The notes under the pieces were generated by a model. That model ran no database searches and had not been told where the DNA came from. It saw nothing but the letters and a program-made list of their open reading frames with translations. A DNA stretch of 64,000 bases from Buxus sempervirens (Eukaryota > Streptophyta > Magnoliopsida > Buxales > Buxaceae): contig OX387183.1 in NCBI GenBank assembly GCA_947561395.2, forward strand, positions 2,055,883 through 2,119,882, read 5' to 3'. The first letter of the stretch is position 1. Each line of letters opens with the position of its first letter. Below are positions 29,504 to 64,000 of this stretch, piece by piece. The position numbers and the translations under genes are program-made.

Positions 29504-29716
29504 CGATCGATCTTTGCTTCGGATTGCTTTCAGAGATTGCTTTCAGAAATATATCTTTCTGACCTGCAGCCGATGATTGTGCAGAGAGCTTTGAGCTCAA
29601 CTAGTTTTATGTTTGTCTGCAACCTACCTTGTGCTTCTGTTTTCCAAGCAACTGCAAGAGTAAGGACAAACTACAATCTGTTGTTTCTATATATTCATCA
29701 TAAAGAGGAGTCTCTT

Positions 29717-29734
29717 CCTTTTTTTTTGGTGAAA
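29717..29734 (-). mobile_element. LINE-tail micro-insertion, 18 bp
   Basis: An insert of C2, T9 and GGTGAAA between two copies of AGGAGTCTCTT (29706-29716 and 29735-29745). Unit 2 has a single uninterrupted AGAGTCTCTTT at this place (near 47,904). Read as the poly-A end of an extremely truncated retroposon. Confidence 0.6.
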
Positions 29735-29893
29735 AGGAGTCTCTTTCGCCATATGTGCCAAGAACACAAAACACAATTGCATTGGTTTCGGCGCTTCTGG
29801 GAGGGAATCTTCAATCTTGGACAGTGAAGCTTATAGATATAGGTGTCCCATGGGTCTACACTGCTTTTTCAATAATGTCAATGATGTTTTGAT

Positions 29894-29909
29894 TTTTTTT
29901 TTGGTAACG
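29894..29909 (-). mobile_element. LINE-tail micro-insertion, 16 bp
   Basis: T9 followed by GGTAACG between two exact copies of CAATGATGTTTTGAT (29879-29893 and 29910-29924). Unit 2 keeps the empty site near 48,289-48,303. Confidence 0.7.
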
Positions 29910-30052
29910 CAATGATGTTTTGATTAGTGATGTAACATGGGACACAAGCCTGATTAGTGATGTCAATGATGTTTTGATTAGTGACGTAACATGGGACACT
30001 TATTTTATCAGAAGCACGGTATCCATGCGCTTGTCAATTTACTTCTTGTGAT

Positions 30053-30440
30053 AGTTTTATCTGCAGCCCATAAATGAAGCCTCCATAATCCACATGATGC
30101 AAATACGTATCCCGTGACTAAAAATTATTAGTTGCGTGTTTGTATCCACAGGCAGTGGCGGAACCACGCTATGTCTAGGGGGGCCAGTATATATTTTTTA
30201 AATGAAAGTATATATTTTTCTATATTTTTTAAATGAAAATTATGTTTCGCCACCCCCCCCCCCCACCCTAAAATTTCTGGTTTGTCCCTTTTTCTCCATG
30301 AAATTTTTGTATTTCATGTATAAGTGTTAATTGAAATTTTTTTTTGCCCCCTCAGATTTGGAGTCTTGGTTCCGCTACTGTCCACAGGACACGTGTTTGT
30401 ATCCTGTCGAGGCTTCACTTAAGGGCTACAGATAAAGCCA
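30053..30440. mobile_element. Foldback MITE, GGCTCTATCTGCAGCCC family, with a nested insertion
   Basis: Ends TTTTATCTGCAGCCCATAAA and, reversed, GCTTTATCTGTAGCCCTTAA enclose about 160 bp of element plus a 228-bp hAT MITE (30153-30380). A second, uninterrupted member is at 46723-46868. Its palindromic core contains GTGTTTG(T/C)AT(C/T)CAC. Confidence 0.65.
30153..30380. mobile_element. hAT-type MITE, CAGTGGCGGAACC family, complete
   Basis: 228 bp with ends CAGTGGCGGAACCA and, reversed, CAGTAGCGGAACCA. It has an exact 8-bp target-site duplication TCCACAGG at 30145-30152 and 30381-30388. The interior has a C-run at about 30,251-30,266. It is nested in the foldback MITE around it, so it is the younger of the two. 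Confidence 0.85.
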
Positions 30441-31411
30441 CCGCAGGAAGTGATCCGTGCGCTTGTATGGGTAATTTGAACGACTTAAAAAGTCTCCATT
30501 GAAGATAAGATATCGAGCACTTTTTTTTTCAATTTGGTGAGAATGGATTTTGAACCTCAACAAATGGTTAAATAAAATGGGTTCTGTGGCATAAGAGAGG
30601 TATTAATCGTCTAATGCACAATCTGCACCTCTTCTTAAATAATAAGTAGGTTGAAAATGGTCACTTGACGTTTAATTATCTTCTTATTTGTGTGTTAAAA
30701 GTTCTTAATCCAAAACGGGTTTCAAGGGTCCAGATTTCCAAGTCTTAACGTATTTAAAGTTGGGTGGATCAGCTTGCGAATTCTATATGAATAAACCCTC
30801 GATCTGTCTTCATAAATTAAAGGTAAATGTAATGTAAAACAACCGGCCAGAATGTTGGTCGGTACGTGTCCGTAACCTTAAAAAATCCTACTTTTAGGGG
30901 TGACAATGGGGTGGGTTTGGGGATGGCAAAGGGTATTTTTCCTTTTTAAATATAAATCAAGAACTAGTTTTATGTAATGTACAAGCCAAAACCAAAGTGA
31001 AATTAACCTATAAGGTCCCTGAAATCTATAATCGACCCTAATAGATTTGGCTCTGTTTATCGGTTTTAATCAAACCCTTGCCTTTCCCAGCTAAAATTTT
31101 ACATAAATTTGTATTTTATTTTGGAAAAATACCATTTATAAGTAATAAATGGATGTAGGTTGGGTGAGGGCAATTAAAGTAGCATGTTACAGCTTAAATA
31201 GTTCAGGGCCAGTAGCTACTCCTTCAGGTCATTAAATACTTTTGCTGAACACCTCAGAACGTCCTTCAATGTAACTTATTATTGGTGGTCTTGGTATCCT
31301 AGATAAGGATTTTGAGTTTGGTGGTTGAGCTTATTATTGACTTCTATTAAATACAACATGCCTATTAATATCTTCTTTATCGAAGGTCTAACTATTAAGC
31401 TTGTATAGGAC

Positions 31412-31541
31412 TTGAAATCTGCTGGAGCCCTTGGTTGGAAGATCTGTTGGTCCAACGATGAAATATATGTCCACATAAGTGCATGAAGTCTATGTGTACA
31501 CACCCTCCATCGTTGGACCAGCAGATGTTTCAGCGTGAGGG
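31412..31541. repeat. Foldback repeat, GTTGGTCCAACG family (copy 1)
   Basis: Inverted arms around TTGGTCCAACGATG and CATCGTTGGACCA. The same family is at 45297-45406, 49729-49870, 53586-53720 and 58866-58995. Copy 3 is the unit 2 counterpart of this one. Confidence 0.7.
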
Positions 31542-32127
31542 ACCAGTGGATATGATCTTCTCATATAGTTTGTGAGAAGTTCTTTTCATCCTCTTGTTAG
31601 CTGTGAAGCACATTAAAGAATAGTTTATGAATTGTTATTAATTACCAAAAATGAAAAAAATGTTATTAATTGACTATCATAGATAAACTTTAACAGAATT
31701 AAATAATTGAAATAAAATGACAGATTTTGAATGGTACAAACATGTATCTCTCAAAAATTAACAATTTTCACAAGAATACAAGCATGATACATGTAAGAAA
31801 AGATTTGTGTTTTGGCTTACCAAAATTATTTGCCTAAAAAAAATTGAAAACAATATGATAATAAAGACCTCAATTAATGGCCAACTTATACAACTGGTTG
31901 TCATATATATATACACTAGTAGAGTGTATGTGCTTATATACACTAGTAGAGTGTATGTGCTACCTACACGTACGTAGATAAAAATGTTAGGACATGTAAG
32001 GGATAACAAATTAATGAATGGTATCTTTTGGAAAGTGAAAAATGAAAAAAGACAAAGTTATCCATTTAAATATACAAGACAAAATATCATTAGAAGGTTA
32101 TTTTTAAATAAAAAAAAAAGTATATAT

Positions 32128-32577
32128 ACCAAAGGGATCTAAATTGCAACTACATCTTGAATTGAAAATCATTTAAGCATTGCAAAACCTTGAGATCTAA
32201 GATCTGAACCTTTTGATGTTTACGTTGTAGCCTAAGAAGTAGCTATAGTAAGTGCAACCAAGAAGATATGTTCAAGCATCTAAATGCATAGAATGCTAGA
32301 ACTAAAAAGCAAGAAACCATGCCAGAATATCAACTAGGGGATTAGACTACGCGCATAACAAATTGCTTTGAACCCACTTAGAAAAAATTAGACTAAGGGT
32401 CTAAAGTGAATTTGGTTAGCAAATTATGTAAAACCCACTTAGAAAAAACTTCAACAAGAGTTCAAATCGCATGCAGTTCAATTATACTGATGTGTCATAA
32501 CAAATCCAAAAATATAGAAAAAACCAAGAGACGATTTGGGTAATAGATTATCTGATCAAAATTTGGCAGTTCTATGA
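32128..32577. mobile_element. Right part of the Pack-MULE-like element, second copy
   Basis: Counterpart of 17,462-17,916: the captured exon 2 piece followed by the right inverted arm, ending ATTTGGCAGTTCTATG. The left arm is absent because the duplication joint cuts the element. The exon 2 copy here has an in-frame stop not seen in the other copies. Confidence 0.6.
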
Positions 32578-33896
32578 TTTAATGCTTAAAACCTTCTCAT
32601 ATTAGCCATATGGGAGACTTCAAACTTCAGATCTCAACAACTCTTATGCGGACTCTAGAATTCTTAAAACCTCAAGCAGGTCCGCCCTTTCAAGATCCTT
32701 ATAGAAGACTAAACCCTAGAGAAGAGATTTACCCACTACAAATTTTGGGTGAATTAGTGGCGACTTATTACCGGCGGTTTCATGAAATCACCAGTAATGA
32801 CATGTATTGAGGTGCTTCGAATCCGAGTGGGTTAAAAATATTCAGCACTCTTTAACGGCACTTGTTTTTGGAAGCGCCAACGATGTTTATCAAATCCCTT
32901 CTTCTACAATTATTCTCGACTGCAAGCCCTTCGTTCTTCTCTTCCTAATCGAGCAAGCCCTTTTTGTAAGCTTGATTTCGTTTTTGCCTTGAGGCTTCTC
33001 TGGTGGATCCTATCGGCAGTAATTCTGATCGGAACAGAAGAGCAAGACAAGACCGATCGATCTCGATCTGTCTCACTCGCAGCCGGCTAGGTTTTCTCCT
33101 CAGAAGGTCGGTTACAATGGTTTTGGATTTGAGCTTGTTGAGTTGTTGTTTTATATGAATTACTTCAATTTGAGTTTGCTTTACTTTGAGATTTTGATAT
33201 TTAGTTCTTGTAATTGTAACTTGGAATTTGGATCTGTTGATTATGGATTCACTCTCTTTCTCCCTCCCTCTGGCCCTCAGTTTCCCTCCTTTTTGCAATT
33301 CTTCTTCTTCTATAGACGTAAATTGCTTGCCAATGTTCAGGTTATGTGATTTGAGAACTTTACCTTATTTTTTGTAAGGATTTCAATCCGTTTGGCTAAA
33401 TTGTTTTTATCCTCTTCGCTTTCTGATTCTAGTCAGGATTATAGCATAATTTTATAACACAAAAACCAACCTATACATAAATAATCAAAATTTGTTTCCA
33501 TCAACATTAGCTATAACGTTTTCAGTTCTATTTCAAAAATCATTTGGATTATAACTATCGGGTTGTCGTAAGAGGCTGCTGATCCCTTGGATTAGAGGCA
33601 TAAAGCAGGTGGATGAACTGGTAAAAAAGCAAATCCCTTCTTCTTATCAGCCTATGACTTCATTTTAGTAGGTATTGATTCTGCTAGAAACAATGATTTG
33701 TGTATCAGAATTTTCCCACCCTGTCTTGGTTGCAGCCATGTCAATTTACCAACACAAGGGAGAGAGAGATAGCACAAATACCATGACCTATTATTTTTTA
33801 TTCTCAAACATGGACCATGAAACTACTACTGATGTATCTTTTGTTTATGGTCTTGCCAAAATTGCAGTTGTAACCTTTACTAGTGAAATAAATATT

Positions 33897-34144
33897 GACA
33901 TTAATTTATGAGAGTGAATGCCACTAAAAAATTAAGGATTATTAGGGAGGGCTTTTAAACAGTTGTTAGCAAACATTGTAATGATGCAAACCACTCAACA
34001 AATCACAATTATAAAAGATTGACATTAATTTATGAGAGTGAATGCCACTACAAAATTAAGGATTATTAGGGAAGGCTTTTGAACAATTGTTAGCAAAACA
34101 TTGTAATGATGCAAACCACTCAACAATTCACAATCATAAAAGAA
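33897..34144. repeat. 124-bp direct tandem duplication
   Basis: Two near-identical units starting GACATTAATTTATGAGAGTG at 33897 and 34021, inside the CACTA element. Confidence 0.9.
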
Positions 34145-34728
34145 AAATAAGAACTAGAAAATCATCTAAAGAAAATACTCAAAATAGTTGTTTGCTACTC
34201 AATTCACAACTCAGCATAATAGTGAACTGATTGGTGAGTGGAGAGTAGGCATATTTGGGACTCTAGATTACTTAACTCTTCAGTATTTTATATATATTGT
34301 AATTAATTACAGCATCATCACTAGTACTGCTTTATGATATTAAACAATATCTAAACTGTAATGCTATCACTGATGTTTCTTTTGTGTCCTCGTCCTTGGC
34401 TTTTCAAACTTTCCTAGGATGCATATACAAACACTTAAATTAAATAGTATCTTGCAAGACTTTTTGAAAGTTCAAGCTTTATGTTGGCATTTTAATGTAA
34501 TGCATGCATACAACCAACTATGGATATGGTCATGCATGCATGATTTTTCACGAAATTACTAGTTAATCTTATTTGATAATATACAGTATTATGACAGGAA
34601 CAGAATTGATTCCTCGGACAAAAAAGAAAGAAAAAGAGGGTAATTATATAAAGAATTTTAATCAGCTATCTACTATTGCATGAGTTGCATTTAGCATTGA
34701 TTCTAAGTATATCAGGATTTTATTACAG

Positions 34729-34835
34729 GTATGGTAGCTTCTATTCTGGATCCACAACCTGGAGAAACCATCATTGACTGTTGTGCCGCACATGGAGGGA
34801 AGACCCTGTTCATGGCTTCACACTTGAGGGGCAAG
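34729..34835 (+). pseudogene. Captured exon of an NSUN/RsmB-type RNA m5C methyltransferase
   Basis: A 107-nt exon-like block with a TTACAG acceptor and AAG|GTGATT donor. It encodes VASILDPQPGETIIDCCAA followed by HGGKTLFMASHLRGK. This is SAM-binding motif I of the NOL1/NOP2/Sun family, normally D-x-C-A-A-P-G-G-K-T; here the Pro is His. The family methylates C5 of cytosine in rRNA or tRNA. No catalytic Cys exons are found nearby, so it is a fragment carried by the CACTA element rather than a working gene. Confidence 0.75.
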
Positions 34836-37417: not shown

Positions 37418-38680
37418 TTGAGGGGTTTTATAGATAATGAGGATGAAATGGTCTGGATTGTCCTGCTCGTGTTGGTGATAGTACGATGAAAACCCTAGTA
37501 TGCGTCATCCGTTGGGAATAAAATGTCTTCAATGCCCTTTTACTAGAGCCAATTTACAATCACATATGATTTTACTAATCATAATTAGGAACCTATTTTA
37601 CTCTAGGAATTTATTTTTATTTTTATTTTTTATATTTGTTTTTTTGTCTATGTATGTGTTTTGGTGCTGCCTGATCTTGTAGCAATAATAATAATAATAA
37701 TAATAATAACAATAATATAAAACGGTCCTAAAAAAAGTGCCAAACATGTAATCTTTTATTCCCAATACAATCTTAAAATGCCTTCTTATGCATATTTCTA
37801 TGGGATAACTTGGATATTTTCTGTTTTTTGTTTTCACTTACGAAAACAATACCATTTAAAAATTTTTAAGCCTTCAATGTTGCAAAAAATCACTCACATC
37901 CCCTTCGAAAAGGGAACTTAAAAAATTCTGCCACTTAAAAAGTTCATTCATTTTGTTCATATTGACTTCTATCTTTCAAGAGTTAAAAGTTCATTCCTTT
38001 TGTTCATATTGACTTCTATCTTTCAAGAGTTAAGCCAGCCGCTATTGTATTTATATTATAATGTACCAAATTATATAAATTATGCCCAATACTGAATTTT
38101 GTATGTTTATAAATAAGCTTGTTTTGTTTTGTTCTGTTTTTGTTGATATTATTATGCTAATTAATGCAATCTTTCATTCAATACCTATATACATAGTAAT
38201 TTTTGATATTATTATGCTAATTAATGCAAAAATAAGTGGATTTAGACCCCTTCCTGAAAGTTCAAAATTTGAGGAGGTAGCCATACATGGTGAGACAAGG
38301 CATTTCCTTCGGTAAAAACCCAAAAAATATTTAAAAATTTGAAAAACTGCAGAAATTCATAACAATATCTGATATGTAGGAAGCTTGACTACAAACAACC
38401 ATGTGGCATTTTTAGCTCATCATAAACAAACAACCCTCCAAGTCCTCTCACTGTGAGGACTCATACCCATGATAAATTTACATCTTTAGATATCAAAACA
38501 CTGATTTGTCTCTTCCAAAATTACAGTTTCCAGTCACAATTGCATATGGCAAAGCCAATTAGGATGTAAATTAAGGCCCTCTTGTCTACTAATATGTACA
38601 TCCACTCTTTATGATGTTGTTTTAAATCCCAAAAGACCAAAAACACTTGCATTTGTTATTTGAACTGACGCTTAAAGCAA
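37418..38680 (-). promoter_or_regulatory. Spacer between MTP C 3' end and the small gene, with its promoter
   Basis: Homologous to 18,808-20,008. It includes the telobox-like AAACCCTAG (37,491-37,499), a (TAA)n microsatellite at 37,684-37,710 and a short local duplication of TTGACTTCTATC(T)TTTCAAGAG near 37,963 and 38,009. No other gene. Confidence 0.5.
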
Positions 38681-41513
38681 TCAAGGCTGACTGTTGGGCA
38701 GTCTACTAAGAACAGAGTGCTCTGGCTTGTGATCACACTCGAAATCCAGGTGAACGAATGCCCGCTCTACTTCAGGGAGTTTCTCAATCTTAATCTGCAA
38801 ACTCTCTCCAATCGCATGGGCTTCTTTCAATGGCAAATCTTCTGGTAGTTCAATGTCAACCTGTAACAACAAAAGAAAATCCTTTTTAGCAAAAGAACAG
38901 AATAATAGCAAAAAATAAATTATAAAATAAACCATTAATACAGTAAGCAATAAGAAAGAGCAGTTAGACTTCCAAATTAATTGTTTCTATACTTTTAGCG
39001 ACATTTGACCCTACTTGTGCTCATGGGTAAGTAATTTCACATAAGAGACTTAGACTGTGGCATTTATCCATAGCAGCAATAATTTGCTTAAAATGAAAAA
39101 AATGAATTTTGGTGAATAGATTCTACTAAAGTGCTTGTCTTGACATATGATGGGAATTACCTTATTTAGGGATAAAAATATCATTTTAAGTTACACATGT
39201 ATATGTGGCTGAACTTTTCCATTTTCAAATAGTTAGGCCTCGAATAATTTGCACGATTTGAGAGAAGTTGGGGGTTTACAATTGTCATTACTGTAGAGGT
39301 TATAAATATTAGAAGTTTTCCATTGTCCTAGCTTTAAAGGATTTTTCATAAATAACGAGTCTACCCTTGTCATGTAAGGAAGTCTTTGAAACAAGTTTCA
39401 AATATATCCATCAAAGTTTAAGATATTAGAAGTTTTCCATCGTACTTTTGCAAAATGAGTTGTGAAAATCCAAAAAGGGGTCTAGGAGTGATTGCTCTTT
39501 TCAGCGCAAGGCTGTACTGATTTCTATAAAAGAACTTTCCACATAGGTGATTAGGAGAAATTTTTCTCAGCAATATCACCTTAAGCGGTATCCTCCTTTA
39601 TTGCTTATAAGTTATAAGTAAGAAACTATCAATTTAATGTTACCAAATGCAAGTGTGGCTTAAAAGTGCTTTAATAAGTAAAAAAAAAAGGCACTAAATT
39701 AAGGAGTTCCAAACCCAGCCATAATCTCAGTTAAAAAGCAAACTGAACGCACACTAATATAAAAATAAAAATAAAAACACTTTTCCACCATATGGAAAAG
39801 GGAATTTCAAGAAAACTCAATAAAGGGAGGGGGGGAGTTTATCACTGACCTCAACAAAATAGAGAACACCAAAGGTGTATGCACGCACAGTGTCAATACG
39901 CTTGATCTGAGGATGGTGCCTTATGACGAGGTATGTCAATTTTTGTAGGACTTCAGGAGGGGCTGATTGTCCAACTAGGGAAGCTACATCAAGAACCATA
40001 ACAGTAAATTGTAGGAAACTATGATCATGACAACAGATTTTCTTTCAGAAAAAAAAAGGATTCAAAAAAATAATTTATTCATTAGTTCAATAATCATTTG
40101 CAGTAATTTGAATAAATTCTCAAAATGAGATTGGTTAAATCTATTTAGCGGAAAAAAATGGGAAAGATGAAGGGAAGGGAAGAAATGCTGAAGGAGCTAC
40201 CTGCATTCTCCATAACAGTCCCAGACCAATTTGAAATCGTATAGATTGCAAGGACAATAGCACCAGCAGGGTCAATCCACCAATAGAATAAATCACCGAG
40301 AACAGCGGCAACTAATCCAACTACATTTGTTATCACATCAAAATAATGATCCTGGCAATATTCATGAAAGAAAGAAGTGAACAATATACCAAAGAATTGT
40401 GCAACTGAATCTGAATGAGGATAGAAGAAATGTTACAACCAGAAGGAGCTTCAAATAAGGCAAGTTAGAGAAAACCTTTGCATAGGCACGGACGATTTTG
40501 TTCCCTGAGGTTCTGCAGTATAACCACAGGGCAAGCTTTACTCCAGTAGCACCCAACATGATTGAGTACAACCACACCAATTGCTCTGTGGTCATCTTCT
40601 TAGAAGGTTCATTTTTGACCAACTGTTCTATTGCTTGGACCAGCACCTGAAAGCCTGGAAGAAAGATTAGCAGGAACCAGTGTCACTTTATTAATGCTAT
40701 ACTCCCAAAGGCTACCGATATCTAGTCCACATAGAAATAAATGATATAAAAACATGAAACCTCTTGAGATTATTCAGGTTTTTGGGAATATTCCTACAAT
40801 ATGCTATGTGAGTTTGTTATAGCCATTTCATATGAATATTCAAATCAAAGTCAGTTCTTGCCACAGTTCAATAACAACCCTTTCAAATCCTTTTTAGGGT
40901 GACAACCATACACTACAGCTTGCCTTTTATATAACAGCTCTCCAATGTTCTCTCCACACACACATATATCCTTGATACCAGGGTGGTAACATTGACCACA
41001 TTGAAATTGATCATTCACAACAAGAAATTCAGAGTTCATAGTACATATATATGATTTGTTAGTCTGGAAGCAACTGCAATAATTTCAAACATGCAGCAAT
41101 CTAAATCTTAATAAATCCAATCATCTTTTCTTCCATTCAAGCTCACAAATTTTGCTGCTACATCTTACATATTCTTCCAATTCTGTTTAGCTAATCAAAC
41201 TTAATCCATTCTATTACATAATGATTTTTTCCTTTAAGATATCTGTTTCCAACTGAAGAAGCTTACAACTTCATACTCCATCTAGAGGAACAAACACTAA
41301 TTGTATGTGAATTTTTTTTCCAACAGTTATTATTGTGCTTAATTTCTTGGAGTTCTAATAATAGTTTTTACAGTGAAATAGTAAAATCAGATGCTCCCAT
41401 CAAGTTTCCTAATTAATCAAATTATACTCATAAAGCTTATTATCTATACTTGTCATTAATTTTGATTGCCACTAGCATATATTCTGACTACACACACACA
41501 TTTCAAGAGAGGA

Positions 41514-41550
<37 letters not shown>

Positions 41551-44239
41551 GTGTGTTGGTGGGGTTGGGAGGATGGGGAAAGAAGGCGGCTACCTAGGCA
41601 CCTCAGCAGTTTCTTCAGATCATGCACCTACGTTAAAAACATGCCTAGGTAAGAGCCCAGTTGAAATACGATCTGCTTACTGCTATTACTTATTTAGATA
41701 TGTTGTCTAACTGAAATATGATTTTTGATAGATTGGTGTTGCTGATCCCAATTAGTTGGTATACGGCATTCTGATTCTCCCCTAGATTTACAGCTAGTAG
41801 CCATCTATGGTGCTTATGTGTATTCCAAAACTGGACTTCCTACTTGTCTTTGTGGGCAGAAAAATTTTAAATTCAGTTAAACCCCATTCTCCAAAGAGAG
41901 AGAGAGAGAGAGAGAGAGAGATGTATTTTTCAGTTTCCTGTGGGTTGAAGCATTTCTACATATTTCTCTCTTTTTTTTCTGTGGCTGTTATCAAATCTAG
42001 CTAGGCCTTTTTCTCGTTTCAAGTTAAATTCATTGATGGTAGGAACCATTTAACAGTAAAACCTTGGATGCTAGCATGAAGATGTGGGTTTGAATCTAAG
42101 TAGTCACTTTGTGCAAAAACATAAGAGATCAAGTCTGTTGCCAATTCAACCCTGCAAGGACCTTGCTTCAACAATACCTATGCTTGTTCATGATCAATTT
42201 TATACTTTTTGGATAGTAAACATTAAACGTCAAAATTTTTCAACTGGCATAAATTGGATTTCGTTAAATTTCACATCAAGTCCTGCAGAAGTAACATCTA
42301 TTTTGAAACACAGGTAATGTAGTTCCATAAATTTGAAAATCTCAATACATAATAGGAAACGAAATTAATTCCATGAATTTGAAAGTGCTACCAGCTGATA
42401 AAAAGCAGGTTAATACAGCACTACGTACCAAGTGTAGCCATGACAGCAGCAAAGATGATAATGCCTACTGGCTGCACCCTTAATTTTCCAATAGGATATT
42501 GGTAGATGTTTATACTTTTCATTGACAAGTGTGTGAACCAAAGGATACCACCAGCCATAAGATCTAGAAGAGAATCTAGAGTTGAAGCAGCAATAGCTAA
42601 TGATCCACTCTTTACTGTAGCAAAGGCCTGCACTTTTTTAAAGCATATTTTTATGTTAAAATGGTTAATTTTTACAAAAGGTGAAGGGATTACTTACAAT
42701 AATGTATCATACAAAGTGAGAGTTAAGGGTATCAGAAGCCTCTAAGATCATTCCCAAAAGTTACAAAGATGTAGGGAAACAGGAAGTACCTTAAATGCCA
42801 GTAAAAAGATGTTTGCCCAATTAGAGATTTTCATTGCTCTTTCATGTTGGGCTTGTTCTCTGCGATCTTGCTCCTCATCAATGTCATCGCCCATTTCTAG
42901 CAAATCAACTTCCTCAAAAGACCTGAGTGTTGCAAACTGTCTTTCATAGTATTCCATTTCCCCTGAAAAGACAGGAGATGTTCAAACTATGAGTTATAGA
43001 AGTAAACTTAATTTCTCTTAGTGACATACAGAAGGTTGCAGCAAGACAACAGCATTATGTTTAAAATTAGCAACTTATCAGGTATAGTCTGAGCAGCTAC
43101 TCATCTCATACAGAAGATATTTATGTGATGAACAACAGTTTCGCAAATTGACACAAAACTGTGATTCCAATAACTGATTATTGGGAAGTAGGCCTGCCTT
43201 AAAACACAATTACCACTGGAGAATGAAGCACTTGCTTGTCTACCAAAATAACACAAATAAAAGGAAAATTCCTAAAGATGATGATATCTGCAATGAGTAT
43301 GATATTGTTGGCACATAGGCTTTTCAGAGAATTTCACCAGCTCTATAATCTCTAAATTTTCTTTCAGAACTTCCATCGTGGCATTTGATTATGGAACGCA
43401 ATCCAGGCCAGTCCTAGTAATTGAAGATGAAACAATTTGAATGATGAAATTGCACAAAAAAGTCTATAGAAAAGAACCAACCATAGACACAACCAGAACC
43501 GCTTCCAACATTGTTATTCTAGTTGTTTCACATATTTTGTATCCCCAGTCATTATTTGGAATCAAAATAAAGTATCAGATGGATAAATTACAACTTTCTG
43601 GTCATTACTGGTCTTATGTGAAGGTGAGAATTGAATCAATTGATCCCTGATCATATGTTGCACAATGCCAAGACCTTAATAGTTGCAGCAGATTGTGTAC
43701 TACAAGTTCACTTCCTTCAAATTAATTCTTACAAAAATACTCATTTGCAACACTAGAATCAGAACATTTTTATAAAGTTTTTCAGAAAAAAAAAAAAAAA
43801 GACAGAGAAAGCGAAAATTTCTTTACAAGAAACACGTCTCTCTATACACATAAATATCATAAGTGAATATATTTCCTTAAGAGGATTAAAAATGGAAAAG
43901 CTAAATCTGTTTTCATGGTGCCATGGTGGTATAGTGAGATTGATGATGCAAAGTGAAACAACCCTTCTGACTTCTGCTTCCCTTTTCCTTTTCGCTAGAT
44001 AGAAACAAAACCAAAAATTGATTCAACAAGTTACCTTCGTTCAATCCTCTTGTTCGAGAGAGGCTAACGTGACGAGGATTCTCAGAATCTAAACCAGACC
44101 GAACCTTATAGGGCAATTTGGAGACGAACTGGGTTCTAATAGAGTTAACCGAGTTCCTGCGGTTAATCTTTAATTGCCCTTTCTCAACAGGAATTTGCTC
44201 TTCCATCAACAAAAATGGCGTTCTCGCATCACCTTCCAT
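38681..44239 (-). CDS. MTP9/10: Metal tolerance protein, Mn-CDF group (copy C), seven exons, intact
   Basis: Exons on the minus strand: 44035-44239, 42790-42962, 42429-42627, 40476-40654, 40201-40351, 39850-39983, 38681-38860. All borders are GT-AG and the frame is open for 406 residues. It keeps every family hallmark: DSLLD in TM2 (144-148), the [11 protein letters not shown] and [12 protein letters not shown] segments with all glycines, DHYFD in TM5 (253-257) at the exon 4/5 joint, [19 protein letters not shown]-like ([17 protein letters not shown]) and [10 protein letters not shown] with His384 in the cytosolic domain. Such proteins export Mn2+ from the cytosol into Golgi, prevacuolar or vacuolar compartments in exchange for H+. 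It is the only MTP locus here without a doubtful change, so probably the main functional gene. Subgroup naming is uncertain. Confidence 0.92.
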
Positions 44240-44989
44240 TCAAGCGAATAAAAAACAATCTTCTTTCAAAACCCAGATTAAATCTTACTCTCCCTCTCTC
44301 GCTCTCTCTCTGTAGGTATTCTTCCAATCCAAACCACAGGAATAGCACAGTTTAACGAAGTAGAATTCGATTCATTCGAAACTGATTTCAGTTTGTTTGC
44401 TCGTTTAGCTTTTCCCGCATCCGAGGCTGAGACCCAAAGGCATGATTAGATTTCGCTGTCTTCTTCCAAAGGAAATCGTCTTCTTCTGGAGGTATCTGGG
44501 GATACCAATTTCATGTTTTGACTTTTATCAGATCTCTGTCTTTGTCTTCAGTCTTTTGACTGCTTCCTCGCGTCTTTTAGCTAAAATTTCTTTTGAAGCC
44601 CTGTGGAGTGGAAGCAGCCTAACGGCCCTAACCAGCTTTGATAATGACGATGCTTCCCCCTTACCCCCCTTAAATCTAGATTTAACAAATCATAGTTTGG
44701 TAATTACAAAATCAAATAGAGTTAACCTCAGTGACTCAGTTTTGATTTTTTTTTTTGGTAAGCATGACTCAGTTTTGATTGGACCACTTCAAACGGTATT
44801 GAATATTAACAAACTCGCCGAGTTGATCTCATCTTCAGCTAAAGGAGAATTATCGATTAACTAAGGCAAACTTAACATGATTGCTGTTGAGGTGCCACCT
44901 TCCTACAATTTAGGCTATTTTAGAGCAAACTGGCCTATAAGTTTTTTGTTTTATATTACTTATCTAATCTAATTTAATATGTATATGTA
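44240..44989 (-). promoter_or_regulatory. Promoter and 5' UTR region of MTP copy C
   Basis: Homologous to 2195-2927. A CT tract at 44,290-44,311 becomes the GA-rich leader on the coding strand. An 18-bp retroposon footprint sits at 44747-44764. No TATA box that I can assign. Confidence 0.5.
44747..44764 (-). mobile_element. LINE-tail micro-insertion, 18 bp
   Basis: T10 followed by GGTAAGCA between two exact copies of TGACTCAGTTTTGAT (44732-44746 and 44765-44779). Unit 1 (26,194-26,210) and the A2 promoter (near 2417-2433, reverse strand) keep the empty site. Confidence 0.75.
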
Positions 44990-44993
44990 TCTA

Positions 44994-45170
44994 TCTATAC
45001 TATACATAAAGAGAAGAGGGGAGAATATTCTCTCCAGATTCTGGCCCCCTTTTTCTTTTTTCAAGCACTACCCTTCCCAAACAAAACAATCCCCCACTAT
45101 TGTAACTACTTTTGATATTTATCAAAGTGGGCCCACGTTTTCTACGCGCGTAGCGCGTGCAGCCCCCTAG
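44994..45170 (+). mobile_element. Mini-Helitron, 177 bp
   Basis: It starts TCTATACTATACATAAAG after an A and ends CCCCCTAG before a T, the A^T target and TC...CTAG ends of plant Helitrons. A 3' hairpin, ACGCGC-GTA-GCGCGT, lies about 10 bases from the end. It has no coding capacity and must use proteins made elsewhere. Confidence 0.75.
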
Positions 45171-46722
45171 TCTATTTAAGAGCAAACTGGCAAACTAGCC
45201 TATGTGTATCTATCTATCTATACTATTAATAAAGAGACTATACTATTAATATTATAATCGAGAGGGGGGGGGGGGGGGGGGGGGTGGGTGGTGTCTACTG
45301 GTCCAACTATGAGTGGGGTGTACACGTCAACGTCATTCACATACATGTATGCCCCACTCATCGTTGGACCATCAGTCTTCCATCATGAGGCTCCAGCCGA
45401 TTTCAAGTCCTCAAACACCAATTTATCTCTTCTCCATGTGGATATTCTCTTTTTTCTCCAGTTTTCTTTGTGAGTCCATGGAGAAGTCTCAAACACCAAT
45501 TTCTCTTTTCTCCACGTAACTATTTTTTCTTTTTTATAGGGTCCAATTAAGAAAAAGATAAAACATTATAAACATATATTATTAAACATATGTTGATAAA
45601 TATATAAAACATATGATAATATCATGTATTAAAATGTTTCTTAAATAAGATAGGAAATATAAGAAAAAGATATATGAAAAAAATAAAGGAAATATGGTTT
45701 TTAATAGATAAAATTATAGGAACAAGAGTAGGATAATGCTTAATGTAGTAACAAACTACTGCTATATTTATATAGTAGTAAAAACTATTATAAATTATTT
45801 AATAATTTGTTATTCTGAAAAAAAAAAAAAAAGTGTTCCCATGCTAAGCACAGGAACCTTACGAAAAAAAAAAATGCTAAGCACAAGAAAACAACTAGTA
45901 TTTTAATTGCTAACGCTACCTATTTTGAGCCTAGCATCAATAGGAAAGTTGAATAAGGTTAGTGGCTAATCAGACTATAATACTACTGGAAAAGTCCTTG
46001 AGGTTCGGAATTTTTTGGGTTAATCATGCCGGTGGGTGAGGAAAACTAGTCCTATGTGACATTTTATCGTTTCTTTCTGCTTTTAGGAACGTCCAGTGGT
46101 TTCAAATCAACGTCTAAAACATAAAACATTGGTACGGCTACAACACCGGTGGGTGTATGTAATTAACTACCAAAATGGTACCGATATTTAATTCGCTCCA
46201 CCTAAACCTAATGGGGTTTGGTATTGCTAAAATCGGGTTAGGGTTGGATGCGAGTGTAGTCCAACCCGTCTGGAACCCAACCTTAATATATTAAAATATC
46301 CTTTTAATATGTGTAAAATGTTTTTTTTCTATGTATCATATATAAAAAATACATATTTTTATTAATAAGTATATTTATTTATTTATATTCTATTTAAAAA
46401 CACCCTTTTACATTTTATACTCCAATTCGGTCAATCCAAACCTGCGAGTTACCAATATAGGAAAGTGTTATCCCTCGTTACTATGGGCTGCGTTACTAGC
46501 GGCTGCGCTACGCGCGTAGTAAATGAATGTGGGCCCATCTAGAAAAATGTGTGCAACTCTTCAATTTGGTTATGCTCAATAACCAACTTATAAAAAAGAG
46601 AAAAACCGAGTAGTTGCGTGTTTAAAAATGTGAGAAGTCTAAGCTGGCCTACCTCTCAGGCTGCATTTGGACAATGAGAAACTCTGTCATGATGTAGTTT
46701 CTTTTCAGATCATTTTCTATGA
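45171..46722. other. Spacer in unit 2
   Basis: It holds a second Helitron-like 5' tip (TCTATACTATTAATAAAGAG, about 45,217), a G-run (45,265-45,285), a foldback repeat (45297-45406), AT-rich DNA and a GCTACGCGCGTAG palindrome at 46,506-46,520. No gene. Confidence 0.45.
45297..45406. repeat. Foldback repeat, GTTGGTCCAACG family (copy 2)
   Basis: Arms TGGTCCAACTATGAGTGGGG and, inverted, CCCCACTCATCGTTGGACCA around a short palindromic centre with ACATACATGTATG. Confidence 0.65.
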
Positions 46723-46868: not shown

Positions 46869-47006
46869 CCATAGGAAGTGAATTGGTTTTCTTGTTTTGG
46901 TCTCGTGGGATTTTTTTTTTCCTCTTTGTTTCTTCTCTATGCATGCAAGAATCTTTCATTTTCTTGCCTTCACTTAAGGGCTGCAGCCAATGAATTCAAT
47001 AAATCT

Positions 47007-47037
47007 TTTTTTTTTTTTTTGATAGTGAAAACTCAAC
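47007..47037 (-). mobile_element. LINE- or SINE-tail micro-insertion, 31 bp
   Basis: T15, then GATAGTGAAAACTCAAC, between two copies of TCAATAAATCT (46996-47006 and 47038-47048). Unit 1 has a single site (near 28,473, ..AACTCAACAAATTG..). Confidence 0.6.
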
Positions 47038-47479
47038 TCAATAAATCTAACTCAGAAGATAAGAGATACCACGCATTAATTTCTCACGTATCCAAACGCA
47101 ACCAAAAAGCAGGAAAAGCCTATTTTCTTCCAGTTTCTTGTACTCTCTTCTTGTTCAAACTGGCCGTCTAATTACCACCCTTCAGTGTCTAAAAACAGGG
47201 AAAGATAAAAAACGAAGACTCTAACAAGCCAGATTGTGTCAAATCGGAGTCTTGGTTTTTCTTGCATTGTACACCAAGGTTTTAATCTCGGTTTTTGTAT
47301 CGGTTCCGGCAGTTACCGACCAGTACTGGCCGGTATTTACACTAAATACCGATATTTACAACCAGTATTCAGTTGTATCGGGTTGCGCCGACCAGAACCG
47401 GTACACACAGGCATAACGACAAGAACAATTACAGAGAGAGAGAGAAGCACTTGAGAGTTCAGAGTTTCTCATATCATAC

Positions 47480-47669
47480 CTTTGGAGCTTATAGCATTGG
47501 CAGGTTTTGGGGTGAAGGACTCGTGGGATCCATAGTTTATCTCCCAAGCGAACTGAAACCTGTGAAAGAAATTAGCCCTAGCCTCACTGTATCCGCCATT
47601 TCTCCCCTGATCTTCTCCGTCCCCATTCGTCTGCTTTAGCAGCAGTGTCTCGTCACACGCAGTAGCCAT
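47480..47669 (-). CDS. Orphan first exon, MATACDETLLLKQ type (unit 2 copy)
   Basis: 190-nt exon from ATG (47669) to an AAAG|GTATGA donor, matching 29314-29503 in length, start and donor. Differences are mostly amino-acid changing (for example QMNG/QTNG, WERN/WEIN, FTTK/FTPK). No second exon is recognised before the unit's left neighbours. Family not recognised; it may be a truncated 5' gene end. Confidence 0.4.
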
Positions 47670-48009
47670 CGATCGATCTTCGCTTCGGATTGCTTTCAGA
47701 AGCCTTTCAGAAATATATCTTTCTGATCTGCAGCCGATGATTCTGCTCGATCAAGATGCAGCAACCCTCTTGTGCAGAGAGCTTTGAGCTCAACGAGCTT
47801 TATATTATTAGTCTGCAGCCTACCTGCTTCTATTTTCCAAGCAAGTCTATGAGTAAGGACAAACTACAATCTGTGGTTTTGTATATATTCATCATACACA
47901 GAAGAGTCTCTTTCGCCATATGTGTCAAGAACACAAAACACAATTGCATTGGTTTCGGCGCTTCTGAGAGGGAATCTTCAATCTTGGATAGTAGGGAGTT
48001 GAAATCTCG

Positions 48010-48260
48010 GACAGTAGGGAGTTGAAATCGTCCGCCAGGTTTCCTGTTTTGCTCCTTGATGTGGCCGTGAGATGTAGCGTGGCGTAGCTCACTGCGCATC
48101 TCATGCTCAGTCTTTTTTGAATGTTGTAAATGTTTTAGGTGGCCCCACATGAAAAAAACATTGGCCGTGAGATACTCCACATGGTAGCATTTCATGACCA
48201 CATCAGTAAGCAAATCAGAGAAGCATGGCAGACAATTTGCTTCTGTAAAGCTTCTAGATG
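48010..48260. mobile_element. Mutator-like MITE, GTCTGCCGCAGG family
   Basis: Present in unit 2 and absent at the matching place in unit 1 (near 29,825). The left tip GAAATCGTCCGCCAGG and right tip ATGGCAGACAATTTG are inverted; inside are paired GCCGTGAGAT motifs and a GTGGCCCCACATGA stretch. Confidence 0.6.
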
Positions 48261-48261
48261 C

Positions 48262-49287
48262 AGGTGCCCCAGGGGTCCACACTGCTTTCAATGATGTTTT
48301 GATTAGTGATGTAACATGGGACACAAGCCTGATTTTAGGTCATAGAAGAGATTTAAGAAGAAAGATAAATATACATGCATGTTTGTAAGGATAAGACAGA
48401 TAAACATGTTTTTTTTTAAAATTTTTTATAATCTTTTTTTAGTTACACATAACCAATATACAAAAATACACTCATCACACTTATTTTTATCAGAAACACA
48501 GTACCCATGCGCTTGTATGGGTAATTCGAACGACTTAAAAAGTCTCAGTTGAAGATAAGATATCGAGCACTCTTTTTTCAATTTGGTGATAATGGATTTT
48601 AAACCTCAACAAATGGTTAAATAAAATGGGTTCTGTGGCATAAGAGAGGTATTAATCGTCTAACGCACAATCTGGACCTCTCTTCTTAATTAATAAGTAG
48701 ATTGAAAATAGTCACTTGACACTTAATTATCTTCTTATTTGTGTGTTAAAAGTTCTTAATCCAAAACGACTTTCAAGGGTTCAGATTTTCGAGTCTTAAC
48801 CCTCCGTCTTCATAAATTAAAGGTAAATGTAATGTAAAACAACCGGCCAGAATATTGGTCGTTACGTGTCCATAACCTTAAAAAACCCTACTTTTAGGGG
48901 TGACAATGGGGTAGGTTTGGGGATGGCAAAGGGTTTTTTTTTTTCCTTTTAAATATAAATAAAAGCGGATTGATATAAACCGAAAACCGACCCTAATAAG
49001 CTCGGTTCAATTCAGTAACCATCCCTAGTCGGAGGTCTAATTTAAGCATCTGTATATATGTAATTCGTTCGGTTTGGTTTAGTTTGATCTTAAAACTGAA
49101 ACCGAGCACGAACTAGTTTTATGTAATGTACAAGCCAAAACCAAAGTGAAATTAACCTATAAAGTCCCTAAAATCTATAATCGACCCTAATAGATTTGGT
49201 TCGGTTTATTGGTTTTAATCAAACCCTTGCCTTCCCTGGCTAAAATTTTACATAAATTTGTATTTTATTTTGGAAAAGTACTATTTA
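48262..49287. other. Spacer in unit 2, no gene seen
   Basis: Counterpart of about 29,850-31,130 in unit 1. AT-rich, with A- and T-runs and a GGTTCGGTTTAT-like stretch near 49,198. No supportable coding or RNA feature. Confidence 0.5.
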
Positions 49288-49451
49288 TCTATACTATTAA
49301 TAAATTGAAGAGGAAGGAATATTCCTTCAAGATTCTAGCCTTCCATTTTTTTTCCCAACTATTGCTTTCTCCAATTAAAATAATCCTAAACTATAACTAT
49401 CCACTGCTCTTTCATAATAACGACGGTAGTAAGTACGTGCACCTCCCCCAG
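49288..49451 (+). mobile_element. Mini-Helitron, 164 bp, with a clean empty site in unit 1
   Basis: Starts TCTATACTATTAATAAATTG after an A and ends CCTCCCCCAG before a T. Unit 1 reads CCATTTATAAGTAATAAATGG (31,130-31,150) with nothing inserted between the A and T. The terminal CAG instead of CTAG is a variant. A GTGCAC palindrome sits just inside the 3' end. Confidence 0.75.
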
Positions 49452-49728
49452 TAAGTAATGAGTGGATGAAGGTTGATTGAGGCCAATTAAAGTAGCATGT
49501 TACAGGTTTAAATAGTTCGGGGCCACAGTAGCTACCCTTCAGGTCATTAAATACTTTTGCTGAACACCTCAGAACGTCCTTCAATGTAACTTGTCTTGCT
49601 GGTATTGGTGGTCTTGGTATCCTTAATAAGGATTTTGAATTTGGTTGTTGAGCTTATTATTGACTTCTATTAAATACAACATGCCTAGTAATATCTTCTT
49701 TATGGAAGGTCTAACTATCACGCTCGTA

Positions 49729-49870
49729 TAGGATTTGAAATCTGCTGGAGCCCTTGGTTGGAAGATCTGCTGATCCAACGGTGAAATACATGTCCACATA
49801 TATGCATAAAGTCTACGTGTACACACCCTCCACTGTTGGACCAGTAGATGTTTCAACATGAGGGACCAGC
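49729..49870. repeat. Foldback repeat, GTTGGTCCAACG family (copy 3)
   Basis: Unit 2 counterpart of 31412-31541; here the first arm reads CTGATCCAACGGTG and the second CACTGTTGGACCAG. Confidence 0.7.
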
Positions 49871-50410
49871 AGATATGGTCTCCTCGTATGGTCATGAGAA
49901 GATCTTTTCATCCCCTTGTTAGCTGTGAGGCATATTAAAGAATAGTTTATGGATTGTTATTAATTACCAAAAAGGAAGAATTGTCATTAATTGACTATCA
50001 TAGATCAACTTTAACAGTATAAAATAATTGAAATAAAAATGACAGATTTTGAATGGTACAAAGATACATCTCTCAAAAATTAACAATTTTTACAAGAATA
50101 CAAGCATGATATATGTAAGAAAAGATTTGTGTTTTGGCTTACCAAAATTATTTGCCTAAAAAAATTTAACTACAATATGATAATAAAGACCCCAATTAAT
50201 GGCTAACTTATACAACTGATTGTTATATATATATACCAGCAGAGTGCATGTGCTACTTGCACTTACGTAGATAAAAAGGTTAGGACATGTAAGGGAATGA
50301 AGGGTATCTTTTGGAAAGTGAAAAATGGAAAAGACAAAATTATCCATTTAAATATATAAGTCAAAATATTGTTAGAAGGTTATTTTCAGAAAAAAAAAAA
50401 GTATATATAT

Positions 50411-51486
50411 ATATATAATTGGGTTTGTTCAATCTTTGGGTGATCTGAATTCATGGGTTGCTTTCTTTCTTTCTTTTTTTAATTCATTTTTTAAATTTAG
50501 TTTTATGCAAGGAAGAGCCTAGGCAGGTGGGTATGGGGCCACCAGGTCAATTACACCTACCACATAGTCAGTTAATTCATTTAGTAAGTGATACCTAATA
50601 TACAAGGGGCCCAACTAAAGAAATATTTAATGAAACATATCTTTAGTTTGGCCTTCAAATTATGGATTCATGAGCAGCACCAAAAGGGGGTAGGTGGTTG
50701 AATATTAATTTATGTTTATCTGATGGTAACATAATTGGCATGTTGTGACTTTCCACTTTCAAGGTGGCATGGTCATTTGCGGTTTGGTTTGACCCTCATC
50801 TCTGATGTATCATTTTTGGATTTATTTGGTTTTAAAATAAGGATATTTGACAGGGTTAGAGGAGACATATATTGTATAATAACCAATATAAAAAGAGAGC
50901 ATTGAGACCTGTCTGCTCTTTGGCATGCCTGCCTGCTTCTTAAGATGCCCTTCTCTTTTTACAAAATTACATATTCTATCCCTTCTACTTATCCCAGCCG
51001 ACACTCTCTCAAATTTTTTTTTCAGTCTCTTCAGTCTATTTCCTTTCCACTTTTATGTTTGTCTGTATCCGCAATTTCTATGGTAAATGACATTTGATAT
51101 AAGTGACACAGGCAGGATTTTCATTTAAGGTGGACAGTGAAACAAAGAATGGAAAATGACTTGTTGAAATTAAAAAAATTGTAGGCAAATTAAATATTCT
51201 AGAGGGGATAAATTGTATATTTACAAGTAATTAAAAGAGGTTTTTGTAATTTTAGGGCCTATATGTAGCTCTGCCCCTGGCTGGGTTTTCTTCAAATCAC
51301 TTTCAAATTGTCTTTGATGCTTGTTATTTCCCTTTTTGCTCTATGGAGTTCATTTGAAGCTTGAAATTCATGGATTATTGATTTATGTTTGTAACTGATT
51401 GTGATAAACTATTTGAAGATCTTGGAGATTGGAAGTTTGTTTCCTCATCTCAAATTCTGGCATGAGGTTTGTCTAGCTAGGAATGA
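50411..51486. other. Spacer to the right of unit 2
   Basis: Single-copy in this window. No gene seen. A stretch near 51,110-51,285 ending in AGCTCTGCCCCTGGC resembles common plant MITE tips, but I could not set both ends. Confidence 0.45.
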
Positions 51487-51602
51487 AATCGTCTGCCGCA
51501 TGAGCTTGCGACAAACACTGCTATGAGATGCTCCATGTGGAAGCATCTCATGCCTGCAGCAGTGTCTGTTGCATGAGCCTGTGGCAGATGATTTCACTCC
51601 AC
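51487..51602. mobile_element. Mutator-like MITE, GTCTGCCGCAGG family, short
   Basis: Ends GAAATCGTCTGCCGCATGAG and, reversed, GAAATCATCTGCCACAGG, with an internal ATGAGATGC/GCATCTCAT inverted pair. Its right tip (ATGATTTCACTCC) is also the first part of each 98-bp repeat that follows. Confidence 0.65.
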
Positions 51603-51874
51603 ATCCATACTATTAGTCAAGCAAACCTTGTAAAACAGGTATTCTTTACATCTAAGTGATGTAAAGACTAGTTGGCATGCAACATATGATTTCACTCCAC
51701 ATCCATACCATTTGTCAAGCAAGCCTTGTAAAAAAGGCATTCTTTACATCGAAGTGATGTAAAGACTAGCTGGCATGCAACATATGATTTCACTCCACAT
51801 CCATACTATTAGTCAAGCAAACCTTGTAAAACAGGCATTCTTTACATCTAAGTGATGTAAAGACTAGCTGGCAT

Positions 51875-52206
51875 CAAGTTTTACAGTTTCGGTATTTTGG
51901 CCCCCAGCGAAAGCGTTTCGCTAGGGGAAATTGTCAGGGGCGCATTGTTGGTGACTTAGTAAAGTTTCGACTATTTGTCACCGAAACGGGGCGGCGTGCC
52001 TAGCGAAACAGGCGAAACGGAAAAAAATGTATTTTTATTGACGAAACGGGGTGAAGTGCCGACGAAATTTCCCCAAAATCCGAAAAAACCCATTTTTTGC
52101 CTTTTTTATTTTTCCGCCGTTTCGGTGGCACTCCGGCGACGTGCCGTCGAAATTTCGTTTTGGCCAATGGGCGGTACACCCACCGACACCGAAACTGTAA
52201 ACCTTG
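51875..52206. mobile_element. hAT-type MITE, CAAGGTTT family, complete, inside the tandem array
   Basis: 332 bp, ends CAAGTTTTACAGTTTCGG and, reversed, CAAGGTTTACAGTTTCGG, with an exact 8-bp duplication GCTGGCAT at 51867-51874 and 52207-52214. Subterminal hairpin CCCCCAGCGAAAGCGTTTCG. Open frames through it are by-products of composition. Confidence 0.88.
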
Positions 52207-52330
52207 GCTGGCATGCAACAGATGATTTCACTCCACATCCATACTATTTGTCAAGAAAACCTTGAAAAAAAGGCATTTTTTACATCTAAGTGATGTAAAG
52301 ATTAGCTGGCATGCAACAAATGATTTCACT

Positions 52331-52385
52331 TGGCGTGCCATCGAAATTTCATTTTGGCCCACTGGCACCGAAACTGTAACCCTTG
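52331..52385. mobile_element. Last 55 bases of the same hAT MITE, relic in unit 5 of the array
   Basis: It matches the right end of 51875-52206 (GGCGTGCCATCGAAATTTC ... CACCGAAACTGTAACCCTTG) and is followed by the same GCTGGCAT flank, although no left end exists. Confidence 0.8.
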
Positions 52386-52733
52386 GCTGGCATGCAACGG
52401 ATGATTTCACTCCACATCCATACTATTAGTCAAGCAAACCTTGTAAAAAAGGCATTCGCATTCTTTACATCTAAGTGATGTAAAGACCAGCTGGCATGCA
52501 ACAAATGATTTCACTCCACATCCATACTATTTGTCAAGCAAACCATGTAAAAAAAGGCATTCTTTACATCTAAGTGATGTAAAGACTAGCTGGCATGCAA
52601 CAATTTGATTTGATGGCTTGGAAAAACAAAAGTAAAAGAAAGAGCTATGGGTACACCTTTGAAATAGCTCTGCGAAAGTCGTTTTGAAGTTTTGACTGAT
52701 AGCCGAGGTTAACAAAATGCAAAAAGATTCACC

Positions 52734-52815
52734 CGTCGCCTGAGAGATTCGAACTCTCGCGGGGAAACCCCATGTACTTAGCAGGCACACGCCTTAACCA
52801 CTCGGCCAAAGCGAC
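52734..52815 (-). tRNA. tRNA-Ser (GCT)
   Basis: Read on the minus strand it folds as a class II tRNA: acceptor GTCGCTT paired with AGGCGAC plus discriminator G, D arm GCCGAGTGG, anticodon loop CTGCTAA (anticodon GCT, serine AGC/AGU codons), long variable arm GGGGTTTCCCC, and T arm with GTTCGAATC. Both internal promoter boxes (TGGCCGAGTGG and GGTTCGAATC-type) are present. There is no intron and no encoded CCA, as expected of a nuclear gene. It lies between the 98-bp array and the 5.67-kb duplication and is single copy here. Confidence 0.93.
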
Positions 52816-52976
52816 AGCTTTTCCTGCAAGCTTAGCCATTTATTTACTTCTAAGCTGATTATTAAAGGCTTTTAATATAAGAGAGGAAAATGGACTATGA
52901 GCGAAATAATCGAAGAAAAGGAAAACGATGATTTCTATAAATTAAGAATCATAACTCCATGTAGATAACGACATAC

Positions 52977-52997
52977 CTTTTTTTTTTTGGGTAACGA
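52977..52997 (-). mobile_element. LINE-tail micro-insertion, 21 bp
   Basis: C, T11 and GGGTAACGA between GATAACGACATAC (52964-52976) and GATAACAACATAC (52998-53010). The second unit has the single empty site GATAACAATATAC near 58,629. Confidence 0.7.
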
Positions 52998-53234
52998 GAT
53001 AACAACATACTTAAGCACAAGGGTAAATGTTATAGATAAAAATATGTAGTTATTTAGAGGTATTTTAGTCGAAAAGCTGCTTCATTAAGATGAAATTAAC
53101 TTGTTCAGCTTTTGGGATTTATGTGAAAGACTTAACTATTTATGGTACTTTCCCTATTTTTAGGGACGAGTTTACTCGTAAATCACCCTATCCAAGTAAA
53201 TTGGTCGAGGCCATGTCAACTGGTCTCTCATGCT

Positions 53235-57858: not shown

Positions 57859-57904
57859 CCCGTGTAGAGGCAGTGCAGCATTTTGACTGTGGATGATTTG
57901 TAAG

Positions 57905-58172: not shown

Positions 58173-58186
58173 GGATGATTTGTAAG

Positions 58187-61837: not shown

Positions 61838-64000
<2,163 letters not shown>

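Follow-up and report, generated by a model that had tools for sequence, protein, structure and literature searches.

A 64,000-nucleotide stretch of the Buxus sempervirens genome (contig C3, positions 2055883-2119882, from an assembly of 676.5 Mb; hereafter the window) contains seven very short retroposon-like insertions, termed here stubs. Each comprises a T-run, which is a poly-A tail on the opposite strand, and a few further bases (the body), and is enclosed by direct repeats of the target. Insertions of this kind recur outside the window at T-runs followed by GGTAA, where the body is most often exactly seven bases long. They probably arose by target-primed reverse transcription of the type carried out by long interspersed nuclear elements (LINEs), with a stop about seven bases into the body of the template. 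The evidence supports a widespread class of insertion with a preferred stop, a variant of known LINE-type retroposition.

Stubs in the window

An earlier note on this DNA had listed five such footprints with repeats of 11-15 bp. All five are present as a T-run and a few bases between direct repeats, and the repeats measure 11, 16, 16, 11 and 14 bp, so that the range has to be corrected to 11-16 bp. Two additional stubs, 28586 and 45841, were found (Table 1). The body of stub 47007 is the longest among the seven. No open reading frame (ORF) of at least 170 aa was found in the window.

Both strands were scanned for T-runs of at least 7 with flanking direct repeats, and shuffles of the right flank served as control. 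A flanking repeat was detected at 8 of the 129 T-runs, compared with 0.3 per shuffle; these hits are the seven stubs and one doubtful case (T7 at 31660). A stricter scan, with T-runs of at least 8 and a higher repeat score (above that of stub 52977), gave 6/76 T-runs against 0.0 in shuffles. The excess over random repeats, which the earlier note had named as a test, is evident in both scans.

In 140 kb sampled elsewhere, 13/139 T-runs had a flanking repeat (0.9 shuffled), ten of them in locus L042, and the stricter scan returned 11/81. Among the flanks of chosen sites the count was 4/142 (0.3 shuffled). The stricter counts lend only partial support to the proposal that A/T-runs commonly originate from such events; eight of the 11 hits outside the window lie in one locus.

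Table 1. Positions of the stubs and of longer retroposon-like insertions in the window
Feature	Position	Strand	Direct repeats	Insert
Stub 29717	29706..29745	- (T-run on plus)	11 bp, 29706-29716 and 29735-29745, AGGAGTCTCTT twice	29717-29734, CC-T9-GGTGAAA
Stub 29894	29879..29925	-	16 bp, 29879-29894 and 29910-29925, CAATGATGTTTTGATT twice	T-run and GGTAACG
Stub 44747	44732..44780	-	16 bp, 44732-44747 and 44765-44780, TGACTCAGTTTTGATT twice	T-run and GGTAAGCA
Stub 47007	46996..47048	-	11 bp, 46996-47006 and 47038-47048, TCAATAAATCT twice	T-run and GATAGTGAAAACTCAAC, 17 bases
Stub 52977	52963..53010	-	14 bp (one mismatch), 52963-52976 and 52997-53010, AGATAACRACATAC twice	C-T11-GGGTAACG
Stub 28586 (additional)	28586..28641	+ (T-run on minus)	16 bp, 28586-28601 and 28626-28641	unique part GGTAAGA (minus reading)
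Stub 45841 (additional)	45841..45889	+ (T-run on minus)	16 bp (one mismatch), 45841-45856 and 45874-45889	unique part CGTAAGG (minus reading)
Longer copy	57891..58186	-	GGATGATTTGTAAG	268 bp including T-run; related tail, T-run and GGGGTAAAGG; similar stretches in L010, L053, L025
Same insertion as 57891, second copy of duplicated unit	62459..62746	-
Retroposon-like insert	62929..63096	-	15 bp (one mismatch)	138 bp; T-run and GGAACAAAGG, another tail type; related at window 11040-11098, L018, L021
Retroposon-like insert	28648..28820	+ (T-run on minus)	14 bp (one mismatch)	145 bp; T-run and GGCTAAACAAG

Empty sites in paralogous units

Empty sites were sought with queries made of the joined flanks and by alignment of paralogues. 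A clean, uninterrupted single target was found for stubs 29717 (paralogue at 47.9 kb), 44747 (inverted unit near 2.4 kb) and 52977 (at 58.6 kb), in paralogues that are 91-97% alike. Stub 45841 has a single target copy near 27.0 kb, in a paralogue only 78% alike. The site for 29894 is near-clean: the paralogue at 48.2 kb has one copy of the target but lacks nine further bases. For 47007 the evidence is weak: an A-rich repeat breaks up the counterpart at 28.4 kb, and this paralogue was rejected as proof of an empty site because it has diverged too far. Neither joined-flank queries nor paralogue alignments yielded an empty site for 28586. Since clean sites are available for only three of the five footprints first reported, the statement that all were proven in this way was too strong. 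Nevertheless, stubs of this group combine the target-site duplication, poly-A tail and single-copy empty site of a LINE-mobilised retroposon.

Alignment of paralogous units, the check that had been proposed for the whole genome, was carried out within the window. A poly-A/T run was present in 4/40 indels of 10-60 bp, and all four are stubs (29717, 44747, 52977 and 45841); 29894 was not isolated as a single indel in the seven alignments. The 40 indels are not all independent or sound, because there is overlap among units A, B and C and the quality of alignment G is low (56%). The window includes three related units of about 7 kb (647-9165, 19390-25966 and 37985-44994), one of them inverted, which are 89-96% alike.

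Genome-wide T9GGTAA sites

The sequence T9GGTAA occurs 3498 times in the assembly, compared with 440 occurrences of the reversed pattern. Fifty of the first 53 places listed, all within the first 7.1 Mb of contig C1, were taken as a sample, three closely paired places being excluded. Target-site duplications, called by local alignment, were found at 30/50 sites (60%, 95% interval 45-74%), whereas 40 shuffles averaged 0.95 such sites and never exceeded 3. The sample includes two pairs of loci with the same flanks (L024/L025, both with a duplication, and L058/L060, both without); among distinct loci only, the count is 29/48. If the rate of 60% held everywhere, there would be about 2100 stubs of the exact motif in the genome, the sample representing one chromosome arm. 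The median length of the duplications is 17 bp. In 37 stubs the T-run has 9-22 bases, at least nine being required by design in the motif set.

The two bases that follow GGTAA at the 3498 sites are unevenly distributed: TG 743, TA 407 (by subtraction), AC 403, CA 322, CG 251 and AA plus GA 411, the remaining 961 not being split by dinucleotide. Relative to the bases that follow GTAA in the 140-kb sample, TG is enriched 4.5-fold, CG 5.5-fold, TA 1.5-fold and CA 1.2-fold; arithmetic on the same background gives 2.3-fold for AC and 0.6-fold for AA plus GA. Stubs were present at 14/15 TG or CG sites and at 16/35 others (Fisher p 0.0016, post hoc, duplicated loci included). Decay of an ancestral GGTAACG at its CpG to TG, CA and TA was dropped as the only cause of this distribution, because TG and CA should then be about equally frequent and only TG and CG lie strongly over background.

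Length of the body

In the motif stubs the second target copy starts exactly seven bases past the T-run in 16/30 cases and within 2-9 bases in 29/30. Other starts are at 8 (four stubs), at 9 (two), at 2-6 (seven) and at 35 (one, in L029, which holds a second stub). The seven starts at 2-6, where the alignment enters the end of the insert, would fit a 7-base body partly identical to the target. A gapped scan of 236 T-runs of at least 8, which gave 29 hits without a shuffle control, revealed duplications at 5/6 T-runs followed by GGTAA (bodies of 7, 7, 7, 7 and 8 bases; three are window stubs) and at 24/230 other T-runs, with more varied bodies; several hits at scores 9-10.5 with bodies of 20-51 bases may be due to chance. 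Bodies of the GGTAA type are clearly near-constant in length, those at other T-runs less clearly so.

These lengths (about seven bases, and no more than 17 in any of the seven window stubs) are unlike those of a short interspersed nuclear element with an internal pol III promoter.

Repeated insertions at one target

Locus L042 (9116-9263; contig C8, about 5.009 Mb) contains five identical 14-bp targets, AGACCATACAATTC, with four different stubs between them: T3GT8GGGTAGTC, T7GTAATGAAT, T7CT8GGTAACA and T8GGTAGGCA. Independent insertions at one nick are the simpler reading of this array, because tandem duplication followed by drift should have altered the target copies too. Stretches resembling TTCTTGGTGACGGTAA recur around the array and may be older hits whose T-runs have been lost.

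Two stubs each at one target were identified in L015 and L029. On contig C1, three same-strand pairs lie within 90 bp of each other among 145 TG, CG and CA sites, compared with 0.03 expected under uniform placement, a figure that understates chance because these sites favour the arms. The pairs are known by position only and duplication is a possible origin. Only 7/145 of the stub-type sites on C1 lie at 20-40 Mb.

Longer copies and candidate templates

Copies with the GGTAA tail that extend well beyond a stub and are flanked by repeats were found with lengths of 259 bp (L026, repeat 17/17), 473 bp (L013, 19/21) and 861 bp (L010, 17/18). They come from three of 11 stub-free loci of three kilobases each; in the other eight no repeat was convincing, and the comparison has no shuffle control. 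Within the window, the stretch 57905-58172 had been put forward as the 3′ end of an active LINE. It proved to be one old insert, shared with the second copy of a duplicated unit (Table 1).

LINEs with a zf-RVT domain are typical of plants. In locus L002 (1466-1521) a zf-RVT fragment (Pfam E 1e-14) is followed by TTTTACCGATC-A14-GGGAAAGAGTTACC-A16. Its A-runs stand, in order, behind TTTTACC-GATC (A14) and TTACC (A16), and the second could itself be a stub.

The abundant zf-RVT LINE was rejected as the parent, since on the strand of the T-run its tail should appear as GGAAAG. T9GGAAAG has 892 occurrences in the genome against 124 for the reversed pattern, and GGAAAG followed 0/236 examined T-runs of at least 8, so the comparison has no power to tell whether this LINE makes stubs. 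Locus L022 was rejected as a TG-type parent LINE, since of its six genome matches only L022 itself reaches the tail. No parent of the TG and CG stubs was found in a comparison that comprised L022 and six sampled zf-RVT ends.

L022 has T16GGTAATG followed by a low-copy body (1100-1505), which may have originated by retrocopying of a transcript with a TTACC tail. Many of the 150 scored zf-RVT hits and of the first 100 T9GGAAAG places cluster at C1 30-31 Mb, C3 30-31 Mb and C4 36.6-37.4 Mb, which may be centromeres.

Proposed mechanism

Insertion would start with an endonuclease nick at a T-rich site, where the exposed T end would serve as primer on the poly-A tail that follows the TTACC end of an RNA body. 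The enzyme, putatively that of an L1-type LINE acting on one of the TTACC-ended RNAs, would copy the tail and about seven bases of the body and then halt; a cut in the second strand 11-23 bases away and joining of the ends would duplicate the target. The position of the stop would be determined on the RNA, a constant distance away from the junction of poly-A and body, because the length of the T-run varies from 9 to 22 and that of the body hardly at all. Candidate causes of the stop are a block by a bound protein, the footprint of the enzyme itself with trimming of the exposed template, or a very short template, and the data do not separate these.

The earlier proposal that target-primed reverse transcription stopped very early is supported by the poly-A/T runs, the duplications, the empty sites and the common GGTAA beside the tail. 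Its wording that the reaction stopped almost at once also stands, except that for the GGTAA type the stop is not random, the body having seven bases at most sites. A near-fixed body of this length is not what plain early drop-off would predict.

Several observations weigh against LINE-type transcription with a fixed stop and temper our confidence in it. None of the six sampled zf-RVT LINEs ends in TTACC: the sequences before the A-run are ACTTTCC (L046, L047, L068 and L070), ACCTTCC (L071) and TTTTCCAC (L069), and as they differ from TTACC, none identifies the partner LINE. Three other ORFs, one in L002 and two in L010, had no Pfam match, so that the long copies are not established as LINEs. 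The two bases past GGTAA are mostly unlike those of the long copies. The T at the nick site (at -1 in 29/37 stubs and at -2 in 23/37, with no clear preference after the nick) speaks for the mechanism but is partly ambiguous, because a T-run beside a T-ending target is not uniquely splittable. A hairpin before the tail was rejected as the stop signal: folding of the last 45 bases of 14 tails (ten retroposon-like and four LINEs with other tails; L068 and L070 ended two bases before the A-run) revealed no common hairpin at a fixed distance, the copy at 57905 being able to form one.

Bodies found independently of the motif are also less uniform. This set has 15 hits outside arrays: eight from the window (bodies of 7, 7, 8, 17, 8, 7, 10 and 7 bases), three from elsewhere (L035 with 7, L038 with 5 and L045 with 0) and four from the flanks of chosen sites (L009 with 6, L012 with 5, L016 with 9 and 14). 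Eleven of the 15 lie at 5-9 bases and five at exactly 7, the others being 0, 10, 14 and 17; no row was dropped from this count, CCTTTTTGGTAAGG of L016 was scored as the body of 14, and three rows are doubtful (the window T7 at 31660, the T7 of L009, and L045). The L042 array (ten rows in the scan of T-runs of at least 7, bodies 0-16) was counted apart. The gapped scan likewise yielded bodies of 4, 10 and 14 bases. Together with one weaker empty site and the powerless GGAAAG comparison, this lesser uniformity limits the confidence placed in the explanation.

Alternative explanations

The stubs might instead be full copies of a very short RNA, NNTTACC-A(n), dedicated or trimmed, which a LINE enzyme acting in trans would copy to its 5′ end; each would then represent an entire nano-retroposon rather than a LINE copy that was aborted. 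We consider this unlikely, although a body near-constant at seven with a tail of variable length is what such a template would give, as is the dominance of TG and CG in the last two bases. Moreover, the sole non-stub among the 15 TG or CG sites is L022. On the other hand, no such RNA has been seen, other body lengths occur, and stubs with AC, AA, GA, GG, TA and CA exist that have TTACC in common with the long copies. This explanation overlaps with the trimming variant of the preferred one, so that the likelihoods attached to the explanations overlap as well and do not sum to one.

Going a step further, the stubs may form a separate nano-retroposon class, in which a defined RNA end of about seven bases with its poly-A would be inserted repeatedly, possibly thousands of times, by a complex that protects or presents only that template, and repeated hits at the same nick would build tandem arrays of the target. 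We offer this as a tentative idea, doubtful at present.

Ordinary 5′ truncation of a TTACC-ended LINE, with broad lengths of which very short ones were noticed only because they were sought, is less likely still. Truncation is usual for LINEs, and a figure legend in PMC11084082 gives 60% of 3′-end mouse L1 copies as shorter than 0.4 kb; four of the 15 motif-free bodies fall outside 5-9 bases, and a scan from T6 upward also found bodies of 10 and 15. However, the motif stubs do not have the broad distribution that this predicts, with more than half at exactly seven and none between 10 and 34. With the window scan extended to 400 bases, the range from 32 to 137 contained only two AT-only repeats of 10-11 bp (inserts of 67 and 71), taken as chance without a shuffle control, and the row of 29894 with a longer repeat spanning 65.

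Slippage, by which T-runs expand, or filler DNA between repeats at staggered breaks, as in plant break repair, is highly improbable, because GGTAA at thousands of T-runs, duplications with a median of 17 bp and single-copy empty sites need a common template.

Relation to known retroposons

The comparison that follows draws on excerpts of the papers cited. Almost all L1 LINE families of flowering plants are stated to end in poly-A (Ohshima review, PMC3747384), and retrocopies of dicots to show L1-like hallmarks (PMC4838847). Extra nucleotides and microhomology are described at 5′ junctions of human L1 (PMC2912911), and 5′ truncation is considered a likely result of abortive reverse transcription (PMC2104539).

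The closest counterparts of the stubs are 5′-truncated insertions of L1-clade LINEs, with which they share a poly-A tail, duplications of 10-20 bp, a T-rich nick site, empty sites and a 3′ end common to longer copies. They differ in having a near-constant body of about seven bases, whereas L1 truncation generally covers a broad range. Sadhu elements of Arabidopsis, which are non-autonomous and thought to use LINE machinery, resemble the stubs in their poly-A, target-site duplications (7-16 bp in Sadhu) and clean empty sites, and their 5′-truncated copies have been called consistent with abortive retrotransposition (PMC2848041); they are, however, hundreds of bases long, whereas the stubs are almost without a body. 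Tailless retropseudogenes, the subject of PMC5322556, are likewise structurally incomplete products of LINE machinery that lie between duplications, but they lack the poly-A tail that makes up almost the whole of a stub (PMC4838847). A 34-bp truncated somatic L1 insertion in a human tumour is very short, as stubs are, but it occurred once, in association with a 1.1-kb deletion, and the excerpted report describes no fixed length class (PMC7058536). Among the matches listed and in these excerpts, no class of insertions composed of a tail and a few bases was described, a weak negative, as most subscription papers lay outside the search; nor do the excerpts mention a tail-only class of fixed length. 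The body of a stub would be too short for the usual repeat annotation.

Further observations

A 72-bp unit is repeated five times at 97% in the window (27632-27992), beside a 69-bp repeat with C-runs (27439-27609). A pure run of 33 G occupies 41517-41549 and could be an assembly effect. In locus L034, near 642 on the plus strand, T9 is followed by ATTTGATTGA and then by 26 bases that repeat the left flank (score 20.5), giving a duplication-flanked T-run without GGTAA.

Implications

If, for some LINEs of plants, many attempts come to an end once the tail and seven further bases are copied, then a frequent result of LINE activity escapes repeat annotation. The stubs would then record that activity directly, and their duplications would be usable for dating. 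A fixed stop would be a natural readout of the passage of the enzyme from the tail into the body, for which in vitro work is the normal approach. New A/T-runs also arise from stubs, and repeated hits may seed tandem arrays; if the stubs were indeed a separate class of nano-retroposons, this would provide a route for the birth of minisatellite-like arrays.

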